From IMG/VR virus record IMGVR_UViG_3300011116_000680, positions 1 through 38,523 of that record: DNA of 38,523 bases; one strand, written 5' to 3'. Below the pieces are notes generated by a model. The model was not told where the DNA came from. It was given only the letters and a program-made list of their open reading frames with translations, and searched no databases. Every line of letters begins with the position of its first letter. The stretch's first letter is position 1. Shown here piece after piece: positions 12,556-38,523 of the stretch. The position numbers and the translations under genes were made by a program. The stretch comes from a virus.

Positions 12556-14283
12556 TCAATAGCTACCACACTTCTGTGCTTTATGCCACATCTTGTTCAT
12601 CTTATCTGAGTTGGTGTGCTTTGGTTGCATTACCACAAGATAACCAAGTGCGTCAATTGGATCTTTGCTAGCGCCTTTTTGGCCATCTTGCCCAGTCCAT
12701 TCACGTAAAGAGTAAATAAGGTTTTTGCAGTCTTCATGCACCATCAGTCTTGGGTGATTAACACCAACTTCTATCGGTTGTTCTCTGTCATAACATAATA
12801 AATCATTTATTAACAAAACACGTTCATCCACAGGAACCGCCGCAGCTGGGATGAAATACAGTGGATCGTCGGCCTCCATCAGAAGATCCAACAGAGTAAT
12901 TCCGCCATCTTTAGTAATTGAGTTTGTGCCTGCACTTCTCGGATCAATGTATCTGTCCATAATTTCTTCACGCTTGCCTTCATTGGTTTCAAGCGCCCAA
13001 ATCAATTCAGTGTACTCATTGACTCCACGGCCTGCACCTTGACGTTGAGCTGGTCCAGGTCGTCCATCTGGTTTCTCTGAAGGAAGCGACCATTCACCAT
13101 AGCTAAAATCAGGAAACTCACGGTAAACCCACAGACAACCATGTTCATCCACTCGTGCCCAAAGCATAAACCAGTTACGTGCACCTGCCGGATCACACAC
13201 CATATAATTTGTGCCATTAGGAACACGGTCATTCACGTTCTCTGTAAACACGTTGTTGTCATTAAACATTGGAAACTGGCTTCCCGCTGTCTGTTCCGCC
13301 CAACCATACGCACGAATTTTGATGTCATGTGTGCTTCGATTCTTCAGAGTCTGGCACATACGATCCCAGTTGTTGTAGGGATTCAGTTTTGAATGGAACC
13401 AGATGCAGCTGTGCTTGCCGCCTTGATCTTCAGCCGTGTATGGCATGTGGCCAGCTGGAACACCGGTGACGTTGGTGTTTGGAAGCAACTCAGACTTCTT
13501 CCAAGTCTTAATTCGGCTAGTTGTAATATATTCTTTTACAACTTGTGTGTATCCAAGGATCGGTGTGAATGTCACAATTAGCTTCCCGTTCCGAGTCACA
13601 AGACGATACCGAAGTGTCTCAAGCCAGTCAGCAGGCACTAATTCATCACACCACACAAAGTCAACTTCACCGCCTTCAACCACTTTTATGTCCTGGGCAT
13701 AGTTCAGGAACCAGATCTGGTTGTTCATGTACACAGCTGTATTGTCACTAAACCCATTCTTCTGTGTCCAACTGACCTGTGTGTGTTTGTTGCGTTTTGC
13801 TTCCTTCAGTTCTCTTGGCAAATATTTGTAAAACACGTTTTGCTGCATAGACACACTGGTCATGTGTGTTGTGTGCAAACACCAGATGTTGATTCCGCGC
13901 TTGCCTGTCTTCTCTTTCACCCAGTCTGGCATGTTCCCAGAGAGATCAGTGCCCACAAAAGCTTGTGCGATTCGTTTGGCTGCCCACTCGGTTTTCCCTG
14001 CGCGGTTCCCGCCAAGCACAAGAAGCTCGGGATTCTTTGAAAGCAGATTGTCTGCGTCAGGCCACGCTGTGAGTTCTGTGCCATAACGATATGGATCTTC
14101 TTTCTCAGCACGAACACGTTGTTCTCTGAGAAGAAACAGTTCCATCGTCTTTTCTGGCCCCACGTTGTGGATCATCTTGAGACGTTCATCCACAGATGGA
14201 TTGGGCATCAACGGATGATCTTCCAGAGGGTACTTTAAAATTTTCTCAATCAGCCTGTTTTTTTGTGTTTCGTCCATTGACAT
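12556..14283 (-). CDS. terL: Terminase large subunit (575 aa)
   Basis: This is the packaging motor and headful or site-specific nuclease. The ATPase domain has Walker A GGNRAGKTE at residues 91-99 and Walker B VDFVWCDE at 207-214, followed by the coupling segment (RNGKLIVTFTPILGY, about 231-245). The RNase H-like nuclease domain begins at YMVCDPAGARNWF (Asp 364), with MDRYIDPRSAG and KDPIDALGYLVV supplying the further acidic residues. The domains are complete. Two ATGs (14283 and 14277) are possible; the first is used here. No obvious small subunit lies directly upstream; the HTH protein at 18534 is a candidate. Confidence 0.95.
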   Translation of the reverse strand: MSMDETQKNRLIEKILKYPLEDHPLMPNPSVDERLKMIHNVGPEKTMELFLLREQRVRAEKEDPYRYGTELTAWPDADNLLSKNPELLVLGGNRAGKTEWAAKRIAQAFVGTDLSGNMPDWVKEKTGKRGINIWCLHTTHMTSVSMQQNVFYKYLPRELKEAKRNKHTQVSWTQKNGFSDNTAVYMNNQIWFLNYAQDIKVVEGGEVDFVWCDELVPADWLETLRYRLVTRNGKLIVTFTPILGYTQVVKEYITTSRIKTWKKSELLPNTNVTGVPAGHMPYTAEDQGGKHSCIWFHSKLNPYNNWDRMCQTLKNRSTHDIKIRAYGWAEQTAGSQFPMFNDNNVFTENVNDRVPNGTNYMVCDPAGARNWFMLWARVDEHGCLWVYREFPDFSYGEWSLPSEKPDGRPGPAQRQGAGRGVNEYTELIWALETNEGKREEIMDRYIDPRSAGTNSITKDGGITLLDLLMEADDPLYFIPAAAVPVDERVLLINDLLCYDREQPIEVGVNHPRLMVHEDCKNLIYSLREWTGQDGQKGASKDPIDALGYLVVMQPKHTNSDKMNKMWHKAQKCGSY

Positions 14284-19102: not shown

Positions 19103-19341
19103 GCCTGCACCTCCTTTCCATCCTGCTCCTCCGGCCAATCGTCTTTTTCGGACTCCAGATCGGTGATCCGTTCGTGCAAAAGTTGGAGTTCATCAATTAG
19201 GTCTAACATTCTGTCCGCGGCTGTATGCATCAAAGTTGCTGCCTGCTCAATTGTTTTTCCTGAAACCTCTTCGTCCTGAATTCGTTCTGCTAAAATTCGC
19301 ATTGCAATAATTATTGAGCTGTTGTTGTCAAAATCACTCAT
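19099..19341 (-). CDS. Small helical protein (80 aa)
   Basis: The ATG at 19341 overlaps the previous stop as ATGA, so it is preferred over an upstream in-frame codon. The protein (MSDFDNNSSIIIAMRILAERI) is a predicted coiled coil with heptad-like LIDELQLLHERITDLESEK and an acidic end. No family is recognised. It belongs to the run of overlapping small early genes. Confidence 0.72.
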   Translation of the reverse strand: MSDFDNNSSIIIAMRILAERIQDEEVSGKTIEQAATLMHTAADRMLDLIDELQLLHERITDLESEKDDWPEEQDGKEVQA

Positions 19342-19673
19342 TTTGCCACCTCCTCCCATTTTCCAAGCGTTTTCAAAAACGCTTCTGCGCGTTGGCGGGC
19401 TGGGGCGTGCAGCGCAATAGTCGCTCCGACGTAATAAAAATAATTAGTCCAAAGGTTGTGGTTCCTTACGATTGTTTTCTCCGCCTCGTGCATTGCGTTA
19501 AGGCATTCACAGTAGTTTGGAATATCGTGCTTAAATACAAGCATTCCATCTGGTCGCATAATCCACTTTTCAGGCATCTCCCACCCAACTTTTTTTAGCA
19601 TACAATCTTCATGGTCGTGCATTTTCCACCCGCACGCCTGTGCGATGGCTGTATTAATTTGTTCGTTGGTCAT
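19338..19673 (-). CDS. Conserved phage protein with a PNYCECLNAMHEAE motif (111 aa)
   Basis: The protein opens MTNEQINTAIAQACGWK and has IPNYCECLNAMHEAEKTI in the centre and APARQRAEAFLKTLGKWE at the end. This opening, the (I)PxYCxxLNAMHEAE motif and the R-RAEAFL--LG-W end are shared by a common family of small phage and prophage proteins of unknown function. Both ends overlap neighbours by 4 nt (ATGA). Confidence 0.8.
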   Translation of the reverse strand: MTNEQINTAIAQACGWKMHDHEDCMLKKVGWEMPEKWIMRPDGMLVFKHDIPNYCECLNAMHEAEKTIVRNHNLWTNYFYYVGATIALHAPARQRAEAFLKTLGKWEEVAK

Positions 19674-20229: not shown

Positions 20230-20488
20230 TTGTTAGTTCGTTAGCTTTTGCAAAGAGTTCTTCGGATTCTTTGTATAGCTCGTTTGCACGCGCCCTTAAT
20301 TTTGAGGCGAGCAATTCGTTGTGGATCGTCATGGCATGTTCCTTGTCATATGCAAGAATCCCATCACCATCAACGTCGGAGAATTTGAACACCTTGGCAT
20401 TATTCCAATCTGCCCTGCACCCGATCCCATACGCTGTGTGGCTCCAGTTTGGAGCAAGTTTATTCAATCCCTTCACTTCAATTTTCAT
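20216..20488 (-). CDS. Unknown small protein (90 aa)
   Basis: The protein begins MKIEVKGLNKLAPNWSHTAYG and continues VFKFSDVDGDGILAYDKEHA, then a C-terminal helix rich in Glu, Lys and Ala (ANELYKESEELFAKANEL). DVDGDGIL resembles an EF-hand-like calcium loop, but only one is seen. It starts 5 nt after the helicase C-terminal piece. Confidence 0.7.
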   Translation of the reverse strand: MKIEVKGLNKLAPNWSHTAYGIGCRADWNNAKVFKFSDVDGDGILAYDKEHAMTIHNELLASKLRARANELYKESEELFAKANELTNDQY

Positions 20489-20492
20489 AATG

Positions 20493-21083
20493 TTATTGGT
20501 CTATAAATGATGCTGTTTTTCCAGAGAACCGCAACGTGGTCTGCACCCCGCACGGCCCATTTCGCTGGAACGGAATGCCTATAGTTCGTATCTCAGAACC
20601 GCCTTCTTCGTCAATTTTTATTGCAAGAATACTTGTTGCATCTTGTTGAATCGCCCTTGACTCACGCGCTTTTCCCTGCTCATTCAACTGCGTTATTCCA
20701 ATCACAAGACACCCAAGTTCCAGTCCAAGAAGACGTAACGCACGTGAGACTTCCGCAACCTCACGCTCTCTTGAGGAATCTTTTCCAACGTCACAACGCA
20801 CGAGCTGTATATAATCGACAAGCAGCACAGCCAATCCATGCTGTCCTTTTGCCATCGCCCTTGCACAAGCCACAATCTGGTGGATCTCATGCAAATCATC
20901 GCGGATCACCAAATGCGCCTTCTGTAAAGCATTAAAAGCTCTGTGAACCCCTTGGATATGCGCCTCTAAACGAACGCCTTCAGCAAGTGCCCTGAGCGGA
21001 ACATTGCCAATTTTGGCCACAAGCCTGTCCACGATTTGACCAGCGGTCATCTCCAAGCTCACAATCAGTATTCCAGATTTCAT
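20493..21083 (-). CDS. dnaB: DnaB-type replicative helicase, C-terminal fragment (196 aa)
   Basis: This is the second part of a DnaB RecA-like motor. It starts at MKSGILIVSLEMTAGQIVDR, which corresponds to the strand after Walker A (catalytic Glu in SLEM, residue 11). Walker B LLVDYIQL follows (Asp 90), then REREVAEVSRALRLLG, motif H3 CLVIGITQLN (about 125-134), and PFQRNGPCG near 171-179, where DnaB has its arginine finger. It has no Walker A or N-terminal domain; these are in a separate gene at 22843-23562. The ATG overlaps the previous stop (ATGA) and is therefore translationally coupled. All visible motifs are intact, which argues against decay. Confidence 0.88.
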   Translation of the reverse strand: MKSGILIVSLEMTAGQIVDRLVAKIGNVPLRALAEGVRLEAHIQGVHRAFNALQKAHLVIRDDLHEIHQIVACARAMAKGQHGLAVLLVDYIQLVRCDVGKDSSREREVAEVSRALRLLGLELGCLVIGITQLNEQGKARESRAIQQDATSILAIKIDEEGGSEIRTIGIPFQRNGPCGVQTTLRFSGKTASFIDQ

Positions 21084-21373
21084 CGTTTTCCATTGTTTGG
21101 CCTCGATGAAGTCCCTGTTTTCTGGCCCTTGTACAAAGTGATGTACATGTCAACATCGATTTGATCAGTGCTATGGTTTTTGGCATCCAAAGCAATTCTA
21201 TCAAGAATTTCTTGACATTCATCCTTTGGCCCAATCGCAATGATGTCTTGAGTGACCTTGGGGCGCGGAAGTTTCAGTGACTCATCAATCACCGTTGTTT
21301 TCCGAATTACCACCCACGGGGGAGCATCACACGGAACTGGGGAAGTCCTGGCCAATCGTTGGATTCTTGACAT
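21080..21373 (-). CDS. Unknown protein between nuclease and helicase C-part (97 aa, or 77 aa from GTG at 21313)
   Basis: From the first ATG it would overlap the nuclease gene by 67 nt. A GTG at 21313, overlapping that gene's stop region, gives a shorter protein starting VIRKTTVIDESLKLP. Both contain TQDIIAIGPKDECQEILDRIA and IDVDMYITLYKGQKT. No family is recognised. It ends by overlapping the helicase C-part start (ATGA), so it may affect translation of that fragment. Confidence 0.65.
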   Translation of the reverse strand: MSRIQRLARTSPVPCDAPPWVVIRKTTVIDESLKLPRPKVTQDIIAIGPKDECQEILDRIALDAKNHSTDQIDVDMYITLYKGQKTGTSSRPNNGKR

Positions 21374-22101
21374 GCTGAAAAGTAGTCTAGTTCATGTTCA
21401 ATTTTCGCATTTGCTTGTTCCATGATTTCATGGCCTGCCAGTACGAACTGACACAAATGCGGTGATTCAAAATCAACAACCAAAAACCAAAACTCTGGTG
21501 TTTCTTTAATTTCCAAAACCTTCTGAAGCCCATAAGCGTACCATGCAGCTTGCACGTCGTACCTCAATGAGAAGAACTTCGAGTCCCATCGTTGAATGTC
21601 AGAAGTTGTTTTGAGATCTACAATCGCAAGTCTTCCATTGACTTCACCAATCAAATCAGGACGCCCCTTGCACTGAAGTCCAGAACGCTCCCAGAACATG
21701 GAAGTCTCAATGTAAATGTCAGGATTTGCACCAATATCAACAGGCCTTATACGCTCCATCAGCGGACGTACAGCCGCAGCAGCTCCAGTCAACTGGGAAT
21801 ATTCGTCCATTGTGACGATCGTCTTGCCTAGATTGTCTTCACAGAATTCCTGCCATTCATCCTTCCCAGCCTTTGTTCTGCGATCAACAGACGGCCCAAG
21901 AACATAATCCACATGCCCTTCAAGTATCTGCGAATGAGCAAGTGTTCCCAATTCCATTGTCCGTGACGGATTCCACTCTTTTGTGAGCTTCCACTGATAG
22001 TACGATGGAGATACAGCAAAGTTGTCCAACTGATGTTTGGATAAACCGTCAGCAGCACGGTATATATCCATTTCAAGTCCAAGTCTAATTTCGTTATTCA
22101 T
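21307..22101 (-). CDS. RecE/exodeoxyribonuclease VIII-like PD-(D/E)XK nuclease (264 aa)
   Basis: After SKHQLDNFAVSPSYYQWKL, the helix TMELGTLAHSQILEG matches the conserved G-x-x-x-H motif of RecE-type exonucleases. The active-site block is GRPDLIGEVNGRLAIVDLKTT (Asp, then D-x-K), and YDVQAAWYAYGL provides the following Q-x-x-x-Y helix. Such enzymes resect double-stranded ends for phage recombination. No RecT-type annealing protein was recognised; the SSB-like protein at 26746 may partner it. It is one of the four genes between the two helicase pieces. Confidence 0.85.
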   Translation of the reverse strand: MNNEIRLGLEMDIYRAADGLSKHQLDNFAVSPSYYQWKLTKEWNPSRTMELGTLAHSQILEGHVDYVLGPSVDRRTKAGKDEWQEFCEDNLGKTIVTMDEYSQLTGAAAAVRPLMERIRPVDIGANPDIYIETSMFWERSGLQCKGRPDLIGEVNGRLAIVDLKTTSDIQRWDSKFFSLRYDVQAAWYAYGLQKVLEIKETPEFWFLVVDFESPHLCQFVLAGHEIMEQANAKIEHELDYFSACQESNDWPGLPQFRVMLPRGW

Positions 22102-22573
22102 AGCTATTAATGATGTTAAATATATTTTGATGTAATTGTTCTAAAGTGCCGTCATTTATGACCTCATGGTCACATTGTATATCAAGCTGTTCCACCTCTG
22201 ATATATGCCCATCTGAGACGACTTCAGGACGGACAATCCGAATTAATATTCCATTCCGTTTGTTCTTAATATAATCCGCTTCATTTTTAAAACGAACATC
22301 TGTCCAAACAACTGGAGCAAAATATCTTCTGACAACTTTATCAGCTTCTTCTATCCAGAAGTTCTGATTGTACTCGCGCACACACATTCCAAGATCCTGA
22401 AGGAACTTGCGCCCTCTGCGATCTTTCTGTGCATCCCATCCGAAGGTAAGTGCAGCGGCTTTGAGTGAATCAGCAAATCCACGACGCACCCAATTAAATT
22501 GAGTGAGAGCCACAGATGCAGCATCCTTGCCGGAACCAGCAAGGCCAATAAAGCCAACGTCACGCTTGTGCAT
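22094..22573 (-). CDS. Deoxynucleoside monophosphate kinase-like P-loop protein (159 aa)
   Basis: I chose the ATG at 22573 (MHKRDVGFIGLAGSGKDAAS), with GGAG about 12 nt upstream; longer frames overlap the previous gene more. The P-loop GLAGSGKD sits at residues 10-17. FGWDAQKDRRGRKFLQDLG and VVWTDVRFKNEADYI, then LIRIVRPE, followed by a DHEVINDGTLEQL end, match phage dNMP kinases of the T4 gene 1 type and related AAA kinases. It would supply dNDPs for replication. Confidence 0.82.
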   Translation of the reverse strand: MHKRDVGFIGLAGSGKDAASVALTQFNWVRRGFADSLKAAALTFGWDAQKDRRGRKFLQDLGMCVREYNQNFWIEEADKVVRRYFAPVVWTDVRFKNEADYIKNKRNGILIRIVRPEVVSDGHISEVEQLDIQCDHEVINDGTLEQLHQNIFNIINSYE

Positions 22574-22877
22574 TGATTTCAAAAGCTCCGCAGCCAATGA
22601 CATGACCCTGGTTGTTACGGATAAGTTTAGCAGGTGAAAGCAAGTCCGTACGTTCACTCAAATGAGAACGGACAATCGCAGGCACGATAAACATGTGCCC
22701 ATCCTGCGGTTCAGGAAGATTCGATACAGAATGAATGAGCGACTTCAAAAGTGGGATGCCATCCATTTCTCCACATTGTTGCAGATGCGTGTTGGCACGA
22801 GCAACGTAGCCCGATGGCTCAATGGACGTGCCATTGGGCAATTTAATTTCGTGCGGTGTTAGGTTGATAAGTTTCAT
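22560..22877 (-). CDS. NLTPHEI-motif conserved protein (105 aa)
   Basis: The N-terminus MKLINLTPHEIKLPNGT is a well-known signature of a family of short phage and bacterial proteins. The centre has PEPQDGHMFIVPAIVRSHLSE, then RTDLLSPAKLIRNNQGHVIGC, with a conserved R-D---P---IR-N-G---GC pattern. The function is unknown. Its first 35 nt overlap the last codons of the helicase N-part; this is where the helicase gene was broken. Confidence 0.85.
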   Translation of the reverse strand: MKLINLTPHEIKLPNGTSIEPSGYVARANTHLQQCGEMDGIPLLKSLIHSVSNLPEPQDGHMFIVPAIVRSHLSERTDLLSPAKLIRNNQGHVIGCGAFEINAQA

Positions 22878-23562
22878 TTGTTATGATGTTTGCAATTATA
22901 TTTAAGGCCAACATTGTTTTGCCTGATTTGGTTTCTCCTCCGATTACTACGAAATCTCCGTACCTTGTTGGCGTTAGGTTGTCCAGCTTGGAGAAGCCAG
23001 TGTTGATTCGTTGAGTCGTATCATCACCTGTCTCATAGCGCGTGATCGCATCCATGAGCAAGGTTTTTGTGTCATTTTTCTTTTGTGGCAAAAGCTCTCT
23101 TGAAAGTGACTCAGCAGCAGAGGCCAAGTCCAAGACGATTTTTTGTGTTTCGCAGCGAGTGTCTTCAATCCGTCCAGTCGTGCCAAGAATCAGTGAGATC
23201 AACGCTCTTCTTTTCGATGTTGATTTGATGATTGACACATAATCATCCATCGCAGCAGTCACAACGCCAAGCGTATACAGATCGCTGATTTGGTAAAACT
23301 CAACTGTCGGAATCTCTGCTTTAACGCGCTCAAATAAGAGTCGCACATCGCATGGTTTCCCGCTCGATTCAAGCTCAAATATTGTGCGAATTGCGGCCTT
23401 CGAGATCGGATCAAAAACATCGTTGATGTCGAACTGCAAATCTGACGAACGAATCACGAATTGAGTTGGATCATTCACTGCGATACAGGCCAGTCCCTTC
23501 TCAGCTTCTGGTGCCGATGGAACCCTGATTTCGCTTAGGTTACCAGCCCGTCGATGATTCAT
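22843..23562 (-). CDS. dnaB: DnaB-type replicative helicase, N-terminal fragment with Walker A (239 aa)
   Basis: Residues 17-110 form a DnaB N-terminal domain (APEAEKGLACIAV, ISKAAIRTIFELESSGKPCD, VTAAMDDYVSIIKS). The linker helix (SKRRALISLIL) follows, then INTGFSKLDNLTPTRYGDFVV and Walker A GETKSGKT at 209-216, with MLALNIIANI after it. Homology stops there: the last ten residues (from ETYQPNTARN) are read from bases that also encode the start of the next gene. Switch, Walker B and H3-H4 motifs are missing here and lie in the gene at 21083. No intein splice motif is seen at the end. Confidence 0.88.
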   Translation of the reverse strand: MNHRRAGNLSEIRVPSAPEAEKGLACIAVNDPTQFVIRSSDLQFDINDVFDPISKAAIRTIFELESSGKPCDVRLLFERVKAEIPTVEFYQISDLYTLGVVTAAMDDYVSIIKSTSKRRALISLILGTTGRIEDTRCETQKIVLDLASAAESLSRELLPQKKNDTKTLLMDAITRYETGDDTTQRINTGFSKLDNLTPTRYGDFVVIGGETKSGKTMLALNIIANIITNETYQPNTARN

Positions 23563-24211
23563 TTGTCGCTCCCAGTAAAGAGTTATCTCGCTGTTTCAAA
23601 ACACGCGCCACTGCTTGGCGTTTCATTCCGCCACTTCGACAGATCCAGCCATTCAAAAAACGGCCCATTCCACGCAGTGTTTTTTGTGACTGAGGATTTG
23701 CGGTCAACCATGCACGCGCTTTGTGCAACTCACGTTCAACGGTCGCAGCTCCGTATGCAGAGATGAAGTCGTTGATGAGTTGCGGAGGTGGGCAATATTT
23801 GCCGCCTATGCAATCATATTGCATATCATAAATTGAATTTGTTTTCCCCAAATTTAGGTCGGGGTTTTCCTCCTTCCTCTCCTCCTCTTCCCCCACTTCC
23901 TTCCTTTCCCCCATACCCCCTATCCTACCATCTCCCCCATTCTCCTCCTCACCTACCTCCATTCCCCTTATCGCGAGAGACTCAATTTCAGTTTGATGAT
24001 TATGATCTATGATTTGAGTTGGCACGCAATCGCTTAATTTTGCCGATTCTACCGCCTTCAGCGCCTCTGCTGGCATGACGACAGCGGACATCGTTGTTGA
24101 AGCCACGATTTGATGTTTTGTTGATGGTGCCTCGGACGACGTGTGATCGTCGATGGGGATTTCGAGTTCGAGCACCGTTCCGTTTGGTCGTGTGATTTTT
24201 AGTTTTATCAT
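23540..24211 (-). CDS. Probable replication initiator / helicase loader-like protein (223 aa)
   Basis: The N-terminal part (MIKLKITRPNGTVLELEIPID) is a short beta-rich segment. Residues about 85-118 are a low-complexity Glu/Gly/Lys linker (GEEENGGDGRIGGMGERKE). The C-terminal 90 residues (LINDFISAYGAATVERELHKA, RAWLTANPQSQKTLRGMGRFL, NGWICR) match the C-terminal domain of many phage replication proteins that recruit or load helicase. It overlaps the start of the helicase N-part by 23 nt. The linker is encoded by a 100-bp polypyrimidine tract on the plus strand, a possible origin within the initiator gene. Confidence 0.72.
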   Translation of the reverse strand: MIKLKITRPNGTVLELEIPIDDHTSSEAPSTKHQIVASTTMSAVVMPAEALKAVESAKLSDCVPTQIIDHNHQTEIESLAIRGMEVGEEENGGDGRIGGMGERKEVGEEEERKEENPDLNLGKTNSIYDMQYDCIGGKYCPPPQLINDFISAYGAATVERELHKARAWLTANPQSQKTLRGMGRFLNGWICRSGGMKRQAVARVLKQRDNSLLGATNESSTGW

Positions 24212-25303: not shown

Positions 25304-25378
25304 TGGAGCCAGCAGTCGGGATTGAACCGACGACCGTTGGTTTACAAAACCAATGCTCTACCACTGAGCTATGCTGGC
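25304..25378 (-). tRNA. tRNA-Thr (anticodon TGT), CCA encoded
   Basis: The minus strand folds into a complete cloverleaf. The acceptor stem GCCAGCA/TGCTGGC has 7 perfect pairs; the D arm is GCTC-AGTGGTA-GAGC; the anticodon arm is TTGGT-TTTGTAA-ACCAA with anticodon TGT (reads ACA); the T arm is GTCGG-TTCAATC-CCGAC. The discriminator is T, and a CCA end is encoded at 25304-25306. It lies between a small CxxC protein gene and the methyltransferase module. ACA is frequent in the Thr-rich fibre genes, so codon supply is a reasonable purpose. Confidence 0.93.
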
Positions 25379-38235: not shown

Positions 38236-38523
38236 TTATACCGAATATACGCCTCCTTCTCCATTAGAGAAGTATTGCGTATCATACCATTGAGTTAAAT
38301 ACGTGCCATATGGCAGATATTCAGTTGTAACAGTGAACCCGCCATTTCCATCATGAAGATAGCGTTCAGTTCCTACTTGAACTTGAGTTCCGTTATTAGC
38401 TGCGTCGAATGTAATTGCATTTTCAACAATCAATTCACCTGCTGCTAAAAATACAGGTGAAGACGAGTATTCCCCACCATTCCCGTCTGCATATACATTT
38501 TGTGTTCCGGAAGTATATATTGA
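38236..38523 (-). CDS. Tail fibre protein, C-terminal part (continuation of the gene at 1-1435)
   Basis: This is the same 531-residue reading frame, entering from base 1 of the window through the circle and ending at TAA 38236. Bases 38397-38523 repeat bases 1-127. The unique residues are from about L467 onward and include ITFDAANNGTQVQVGTERYL and GTYLTQWYDTQYFSNGEGG. The distal tip is Gly/Tyr/Asn-rich, as in receptor-binding ends. The stop is 19 nt before the terminator hairpin. Confidence 0.9.
   Translation of the reverse strand, partial: SIYTSGTQNVYADGNGGEYSSSPVFLAAGELIVENAITFDAANNGTQVQVGTERYLHDGNGGFTVTTEYLPYGTYLTQWYDTQYFSNGEGGVYSV
38397..38523. repeat. Exact 127-bp terminal duplication, right copy
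   Basis: Identical to bases 1-127. Removing one copy gives a circle of 38,396 bp with the tail-fibre gene intact. Confidence 0.95.

Follow-up and report, generated by a model that had tools for sequence, protein, structure and literature searches.

To our knowledge, the P-loop, the catalytic glutamate and Walker B of superfamily 4 (SF4) helicases are always covalently linked, and RecA-type motors are treated as indivisible. Here we describe a viral DNA of 38,523 nucleotides (IMG/VR record IMGVR_UViG_3300011116_000680, positions 1 to 38,523; this whole stretch is referred to as the window), in which two genes, separated by four others, very probably specify a DnaB-type (SF4) replicative helicase that belongs to the phage itself and consists of two chains, with Walker A and Walker B on different proteins. 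Dassa et al. (2009, cited in PMC10448857) are reported to have described fractured genes with split inteins, gp41 helicases among them. These resemble the present locus in that a helicase gene of environmental phages occurs in two pieces; however, their halves are ligated by split inteins, whereas the halves of the split DnaB carry no intein sequence.

The genes in pieces of T4-like phages include nrdA of Aeh1, gp43A/gp43B of phages 25 and 44RR, and the gp39/gp60 topoisomerase of T4, and both the Aeh1 ribonucleotide reductase and the phage 25 polymerase have been reported to be active as split enzymes (PMC2988022). As in these systems, a nucleotide or replication enzyme appears to be made as two separately translated chains, and reassembly without splicing, which is a feature of the T4-like cases, would apply to our locus as well. 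The enzymes concerned are different, and their splits are associated with either a homing endonuclease or an insert that is not translated. The helicase, in contrast, has a cassette of several genes between its halves, most loci yielded no homing endonuclease, and the core of a P-loop ATPase is cut across a broad clade. Another unusual phage DnaB, Gp65 of mycobacteriophage D29, is an orthologue consisting of the RecA core only; it lacks the N-terminal domain, yet its RecA core resides in one chain (PMC4523182). Literature searches, only some of which addressed this question and in which subscription papers were largely outside the scope, revealed no report of an intein-free DnaB motor that is interrupted between Walker A and the remainder of the motor. 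The original prediction for this locus, made from the sequence alone, regarded a motor assembled from two polypeptides as novel; the split enzymes of other phages make the idea less unprecedented.

The gene for the N-terminal part of the helicase (N-part; 22843..23562, minus strand, 239 amino acids) encodes the N-terminal domain, the linker helix, the first RecA strand, Walker A (GETKSGKT) and helix alpha1, and stops soon after this helix (GKTMLALNIIANI), ending in a non-conserved tail (ITNETYQPNTARN). The gene for the C-terminal part (C-part; 20493..21083, minus strand, 196 amino acids) starts with MKSG-ILIVSLEM (strand beta2 with the catalytic Glu), followed by the Walker B Asp (LLVDYIQL), the H3 Gln (ITQLN), the DNA-loop RES and the arginine finger (FQRNGP). 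In Pfam DnaB_C, the N-part corresponds to positions 2-47 (with an additional weak match to the DnaB N domain) and the C-part to positions 50-254 (E=5.6e-29). The same division was seen in PHROG 19 (N-part 186-378, C-part 384-579), in TIGR00665 (435 positions; 33-224 and 226-432 in the best NCBIfam rows) and when the solved DnaB chain 2r6a was compared with family profiles of the halves (11-229 and 233-438). The predicted division of a DnaB-type helicase between two genes, with the break inside the RecA-like motor, is thus borne out by both open reading frames (ORFs). The halves are complementary and do not overlap: no part of the motor is duplicated, and the loss amounts to a few residues of the alpha1-beta2 loop. 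This absence of overlap rules out an origin by duplication followed by truncation. The sequence places the break site in the alpha1-beta2 loop of the RecA fold, with a share of the motor retained on each chain.

Homology to DnaB extends over the N-terminal domain, linker and RecA core when the two halves are taken jointly; a single polypeptide per subunit is one property of the family that the locus lacks, and the lysine finger ahead of the QR of the Arg-finger motif is another. Domain order is that of DnaB/TIGR00665 proteins (Geobacillus 2r6a/4esv, Vibrio, E. coli), which also give the best fold and sequence matches, and Walker A, the catalytic Glu, the Walker B Asp, the H3 Gln, the RES DNA contact and the arginine finger are shared. 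Unlike canonical DnaB, the split form consists of two polypeptides cut between alpha1 and beta2, has I, F, Y or W in place of the lysine finger and a shorter loop before RES, and its Walker A reads GETKSGKT, in contrast to the canonical ARP[GS]xGK (PMC8421360).

A search of viral contigs with the C-part yielded 158 relatives, the best 80 of which were read. The N-part was present upstream, on the same strand and with the same break, in all 73 loci with enough upstream sequence (the gap between the halves ranging from 1326 to 3641 nt), and in the other seven the contig ended before the N-part. The C-part started at the same residue (M-x-x-G-[IV]-L) in 80/80 loci, with one extra residue in L012, the N-parts ended at or a few residues past GKTMLALNIIANLL/NLINE, and in none of the 80 loci was Walker A found in frame upstream of the C-part. 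As a single-sequence query the N-part gave no match in viral contigs or phage records, but an independent alignment-based search recovered 118 relatives, the best 80 of which provided 62 further locus readings, all of them split, on contigs that are partly those of the C-part scan. Each of the 25 long viral records examined (35-44 kb) had exactly two matches to the DnaB_C profile, one per half. Since the same break occurs in all related loci with enough upstream sequence, chance can be excluded. Relatives had been proposed as a source of the fused form, but every readable close relative was split and none was continuous. DnaB-like matches in Microbacterium and Pseudomonas phages were considered as independent splits and rejected, the genes being continuous.

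The Walker A residues (G/K/S/G/K/T), the catalytic Glu, the Walker B Asp, the H3 Gln, the RE of the DNA loop and the Arg finger were invariant in all distinct sequences (46 in the case of the C-part). The median pairwise ratio of nonsynonymous to synonymous substitution rates (dN/dS) was 0.060 for the N-part (462 pairs) and 0.046 for the C-part (286 pairs), and the distances of the two parts co-varied (Mantel r 0.97, 0/2000 permutations). Invariant residues, low dN/dS and co-divergence together indicate that the halves are maintained as a functional pair.

A loose pattern scan for a continuous junction led to the identification of a continuous sister helicase of 431-432 amino acids (L276/L282, L223/L285, L243/L284, L256/L283 and L286). 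A stricter pattern scan of 2.9 million contigs retrieved four contigs, all of the sister lineage, and a protein search retrieved five viral contigs. The sister proteins share 39-45% identity with the split C-parts and about 31% with the N-parts. Their junction (GGTTGSGKTMLALNIVANILREGAPGACVICSLEMP) retains both flanks of the break (GKTMLALNI..ANIL and SLEMP) and can be set against the ...NIIANLINE (stop) and MNKGILVISLEMP of the split proteins: the sister is one protein, in which the loop REGAPGA replaces the stop and start, and it keeps the lysine finger. A homologue of the window's 23540..24211 gene directly precedes the sister helicase, and a deoxynucleoside monophosphate (dNMP) kinase gene also lies upstream. 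Unlike in the split loci, the exonuclease cassette is not among the downstream neighbors, which by position appear terminase-like.

When 33 proteins were placed in a tree, all split forms lay on one side of a 100/97 branch and were joined to the continuous sister at 100/100; the tree is limited by long branches and few sister sequences, but the pattern of labels is unambiguous. The split clade is monophyletic in this tree, a single change suffices, and because the continuous sister roots this clade, one ancient fission of a continuous gene is the origin to which the sequences point. A continuous gene in close relatives, which had been named as evidence against the split, was not found; the continuous form is confined to a distinct sister lineage, where it provides polarity and does not refute the split. 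As is typical of genes in pieces, a relative thus carries a continuous orthologue.

Bases 1-127 of the window are identical to bases 38397-38523. Because of this exact 127-bp direct terminal repeat, the record represents a complete genome (circularly permuted or terminally redundant), a status that it does not itself list. On one contig (L020 and L090), the N-part and C-part were found at opposite ends, which is consistent with a circularly permuted genome. A second complete helicase was looked for in the complete genome and was not found: the DnaB_C profile matched nothing in the window beyond the two halves, and the window's ORFs with GxxxxGK[ST] included no other helicase-like candidate. 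The only other plausible P-loop ORF (12556-14283, GGNRAGKT) adjoins the portal gene and, by its position, looks like a terminase. A C-part 91% identical to that of L024 is located on a contig that was assigned by binning to a Pedosphaera (Verrucomicrobiota) metagenome-assembled genome (MAG), which also encodes an intact DnaB. Since the binning of phage contigs is unreliable, Pedosphaera as the host is a lead only. The phages with a split helicase are probably freshwater phages, as suggested by dataset context (e.g. a Delaware Bay MAG) and not dataset by dataset. When near-identical DNA was sought among isolate phages, only a methyltransferase was matched, in a record (MW202462) that by its gene list represents a different phage.

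In the reading that we favor, the N chain would contribute the collar domain, the linker, beta1, the P-loop and alpha1, and the rest of the sheet, together with the catalytic Glu, Walker B, the sensor Gln, the DNA loops and the arginine finger, would come from the C chain. The chains would co-fold into a complete RecA domain, six N and six C chains would form the ring, and each ATP site would be built from three polypeptides: Walker A of an N chain, Walker B and Glu of the C chain paired with it, and the arginine finger of a neighboring C chain. The predicted separation of the P-loop and the switch strand is in keeping with the break site, the ATP-site residues and the invariant start of the C-part, as well as with the strong purifying selection, the co-divergence of the halves and the lack of a second helicase or of intein and intron halves. 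Association of the chains, formation of a hexameric ring, activity of the DnaB kind (ssDNA-dependent ATPase and 5'-3' unwinding) and independence from splicing in vivo would be expected from these features. The arrangement would have arisen once, when a cassette including a RecE-like exonuclease entered the loop of an ancestral gene that was still continuous, as the sister lineage suggests.

Both halves would be translated as ordinary operon genes, often via stop-start (ATGA) overlaps. In 46/46 distinct sequences the C-part begins with an ATG-encoded Met, in 25 of the 46 distinct loci this ATG shares 4 nt (ATGA) with the stop of the preceding gene, and in most loci the gene following the N-part overlaps the end of the latter, which points to separate translation of the halves. 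The case for independent translation of the C-part rests on the invariance of this Met and on coupling, because Shine-Dalgarno-like matches before the C-part ATG were no commoner than at internal ATGs.

This lack of enrichment is one of the points that weigh against our reading. Another concerns the lysine finger, i.e. the residue before QRNG, which corresponds to K418 in Geobacillus (Bst) DnaB (PMC8421360): it is I, F, Y or W in 46/46 split C-parts but K in the continuous sister, and with its loss ATPase activation may differ. A further one is the shallowness of the alignments used for the AlphaFold models (43 sequences). The C-part was modeled with a predicted local distance difference test (pLDDT) score of 79, its best PDB matches being DnaB chains, and the N-terminal domain of the N-part modeled well and matched DnaB. 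The fragment with beta1, the P-loop and alpha1 (residues 182-239) was, on its own, mostly unordered (pLDDT about 33-53), which fits a fragment that needs a partner chain, although a shallow alignment could also lower the confidence. A further proposal, which we put forward as unlikely, is that the cut has been retained because the ring works differently, either by loader-free assembly on DNA from its parts or by an on-switch through the synthesis of one chain; given the loss of the lysine finger, such an enzyme would be a mechanistically distinct SF4 motor with three chains per ATP site.

Among the alternatives, the best survivor, although an improbable one, is that the two proteins form no motor of their own and instead each regulate the host DnaB, for example as dominant-negative factors or by joining the host ring. 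A host DnaB is indeed encoded in the MAG that holds the related contig, and contacts of the phage N-terminal domain with the host's ring or primase are conceivable. However, Walker A, located on one protein, is kept jointly with the Walker B, Glu, Gln and Arg of the other; neither protein alone can give an ATP site, and the continuous sister is found at the same place in the gene order.

Joining at the RNA level, by which the halves would be trans-spliced through a split group I or II intron into one mRNA and hence one protein, is very improbable. The N-part tails past NIIAN vary in length and sequence, as would be the case with read-through into a 5' intron half. Nevertheless, no group I or II intron was detected in the window at the Rfam gathering score, nor at E<=10 over 20300-23700, no conservation is seen in the sequence immediately before the C-part, the invariant ATG of the C-part is no requirement of exon joining, the flanks are the coding sequence of overlapping genes, and the intervening genes and the length of the gap change freely.

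We give still less credence to decay or misassembly, in which a broken helicase gene would be tolerated and the host DnaB used. The intact DnaB of the Pedosphaera MAG is compatible with such a dependence, as is the lack of other obvious replication enzymes in the window. The identical break is found, however, in contigs from about 70 metagenome datasets (a hand count for the C-part relatives), which speaks against misassembly, and decay predicts relatives without one half or with substituted catalytic residues; none was found, both halves being kept in 25/25 long relatives with the catalytic residues invariant and dN/dS about 0.05. The view that the parts are not decaying, already expressed in the original prediction, is therefore upheld.

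Split-intein-mediated protein trans-splicing, known from fractured genes in metagenomic phages, is the least credible alternative and is refuted at the sequence level: DnaB and gp41 helicases are often intein hosts, but neither the halves nor the 59 intervening proteins scanned contained a Hint or intein family, and there is no room for intein halves, since most N-parts end 6-11 residues past GKTMLALN and the C-parts begin three residues before the conserved G-[IV]-L strand. The predicted absence of intein motifs at the break was thus confirmed, with intron halves likewise sought and not found. The same 59 proteins included one HNH endonuclease (L078), and none is encoded within the break of the window; a homing endonuclease was rejected as an explanation for the split.

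The four genes predicted between the halves are all present, on the minus strand. The first encodes the NLTPHEI protein (22560..22877; phrog_21731, unknown function), and its start overlaps the end of the N-part gene by 35 nt. It is followed by the dNMP kinase gene (22094..22573), for which the ATG at 22573 is a more likely start than the listed GTG at 22657, because the latter falls inside the NLTPHEI gene. A RecE/exonuclease VIII-like PD-(D/E)XK nuclease (21307..22101) was recognized by profile matches, and a small protein of unknown function (21080..21373) is encoded directly upstream of the C-part, its stop overlapping the C-part ATG by 4 nt (ATGA). In 40 representative loci, the RecE-like exonuclease was always present between the halves (40/40), the NLTPHEI protein and the small protein were usual, and a dNMP kinase or a C5-methylase was variable; the kinase was found in the gap in about 14 of the 40, in contrast to its position upstream of the helicase in the continuous sister. 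In many relatives the gene for the small protein (21080-21373) is coupled to the start of the C-part, and an accessory role for this protein in the split helicase is possible. The gene directly upstream of the N-part (23540..24211, minus strand), whose homologue holds the same place in the sister lineage, may, by its position only, encode a replication-initiator-like product.

Several further observations concern the surrounding genes. A family represented at 19338-19673 of the window has homologues in L285 (where it is duplicated) and L282, and is thus shared by phages of the split and the continuous type; Pfam Tad2-like (Thoeris anti-defence 2-like) was matched by two of the scanned intervening proteins, which possibly belong to this family. 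The continuous-helicase phage L282 (6298-6978) and the gap of the split-helicase phage L047 (7264-7998) share a protein at 89% identity, possibly of the Mom family seen among the intervening genes, which indicates that the two lineages swap genes but not the form of the helicase. Finally, a tRNA-Thr gene (anticodon tgt) is located at 25304-25378 (minus strand), between the methylase and the upstream genes.

If the two chains do form one motor, this widespread, ancient and strictly conserved lineage shows that the core sheet of an ATPase can be completed between proteins, and the break would mark a place where nature itself has divided the motor, of use in the design of inducible helicases. The split helicase would provide a test case for ring assembly, loading and intersubunit catalysis with a broken backbone, and the continuous sister makes the comparison of the states before and after the split directly testable.

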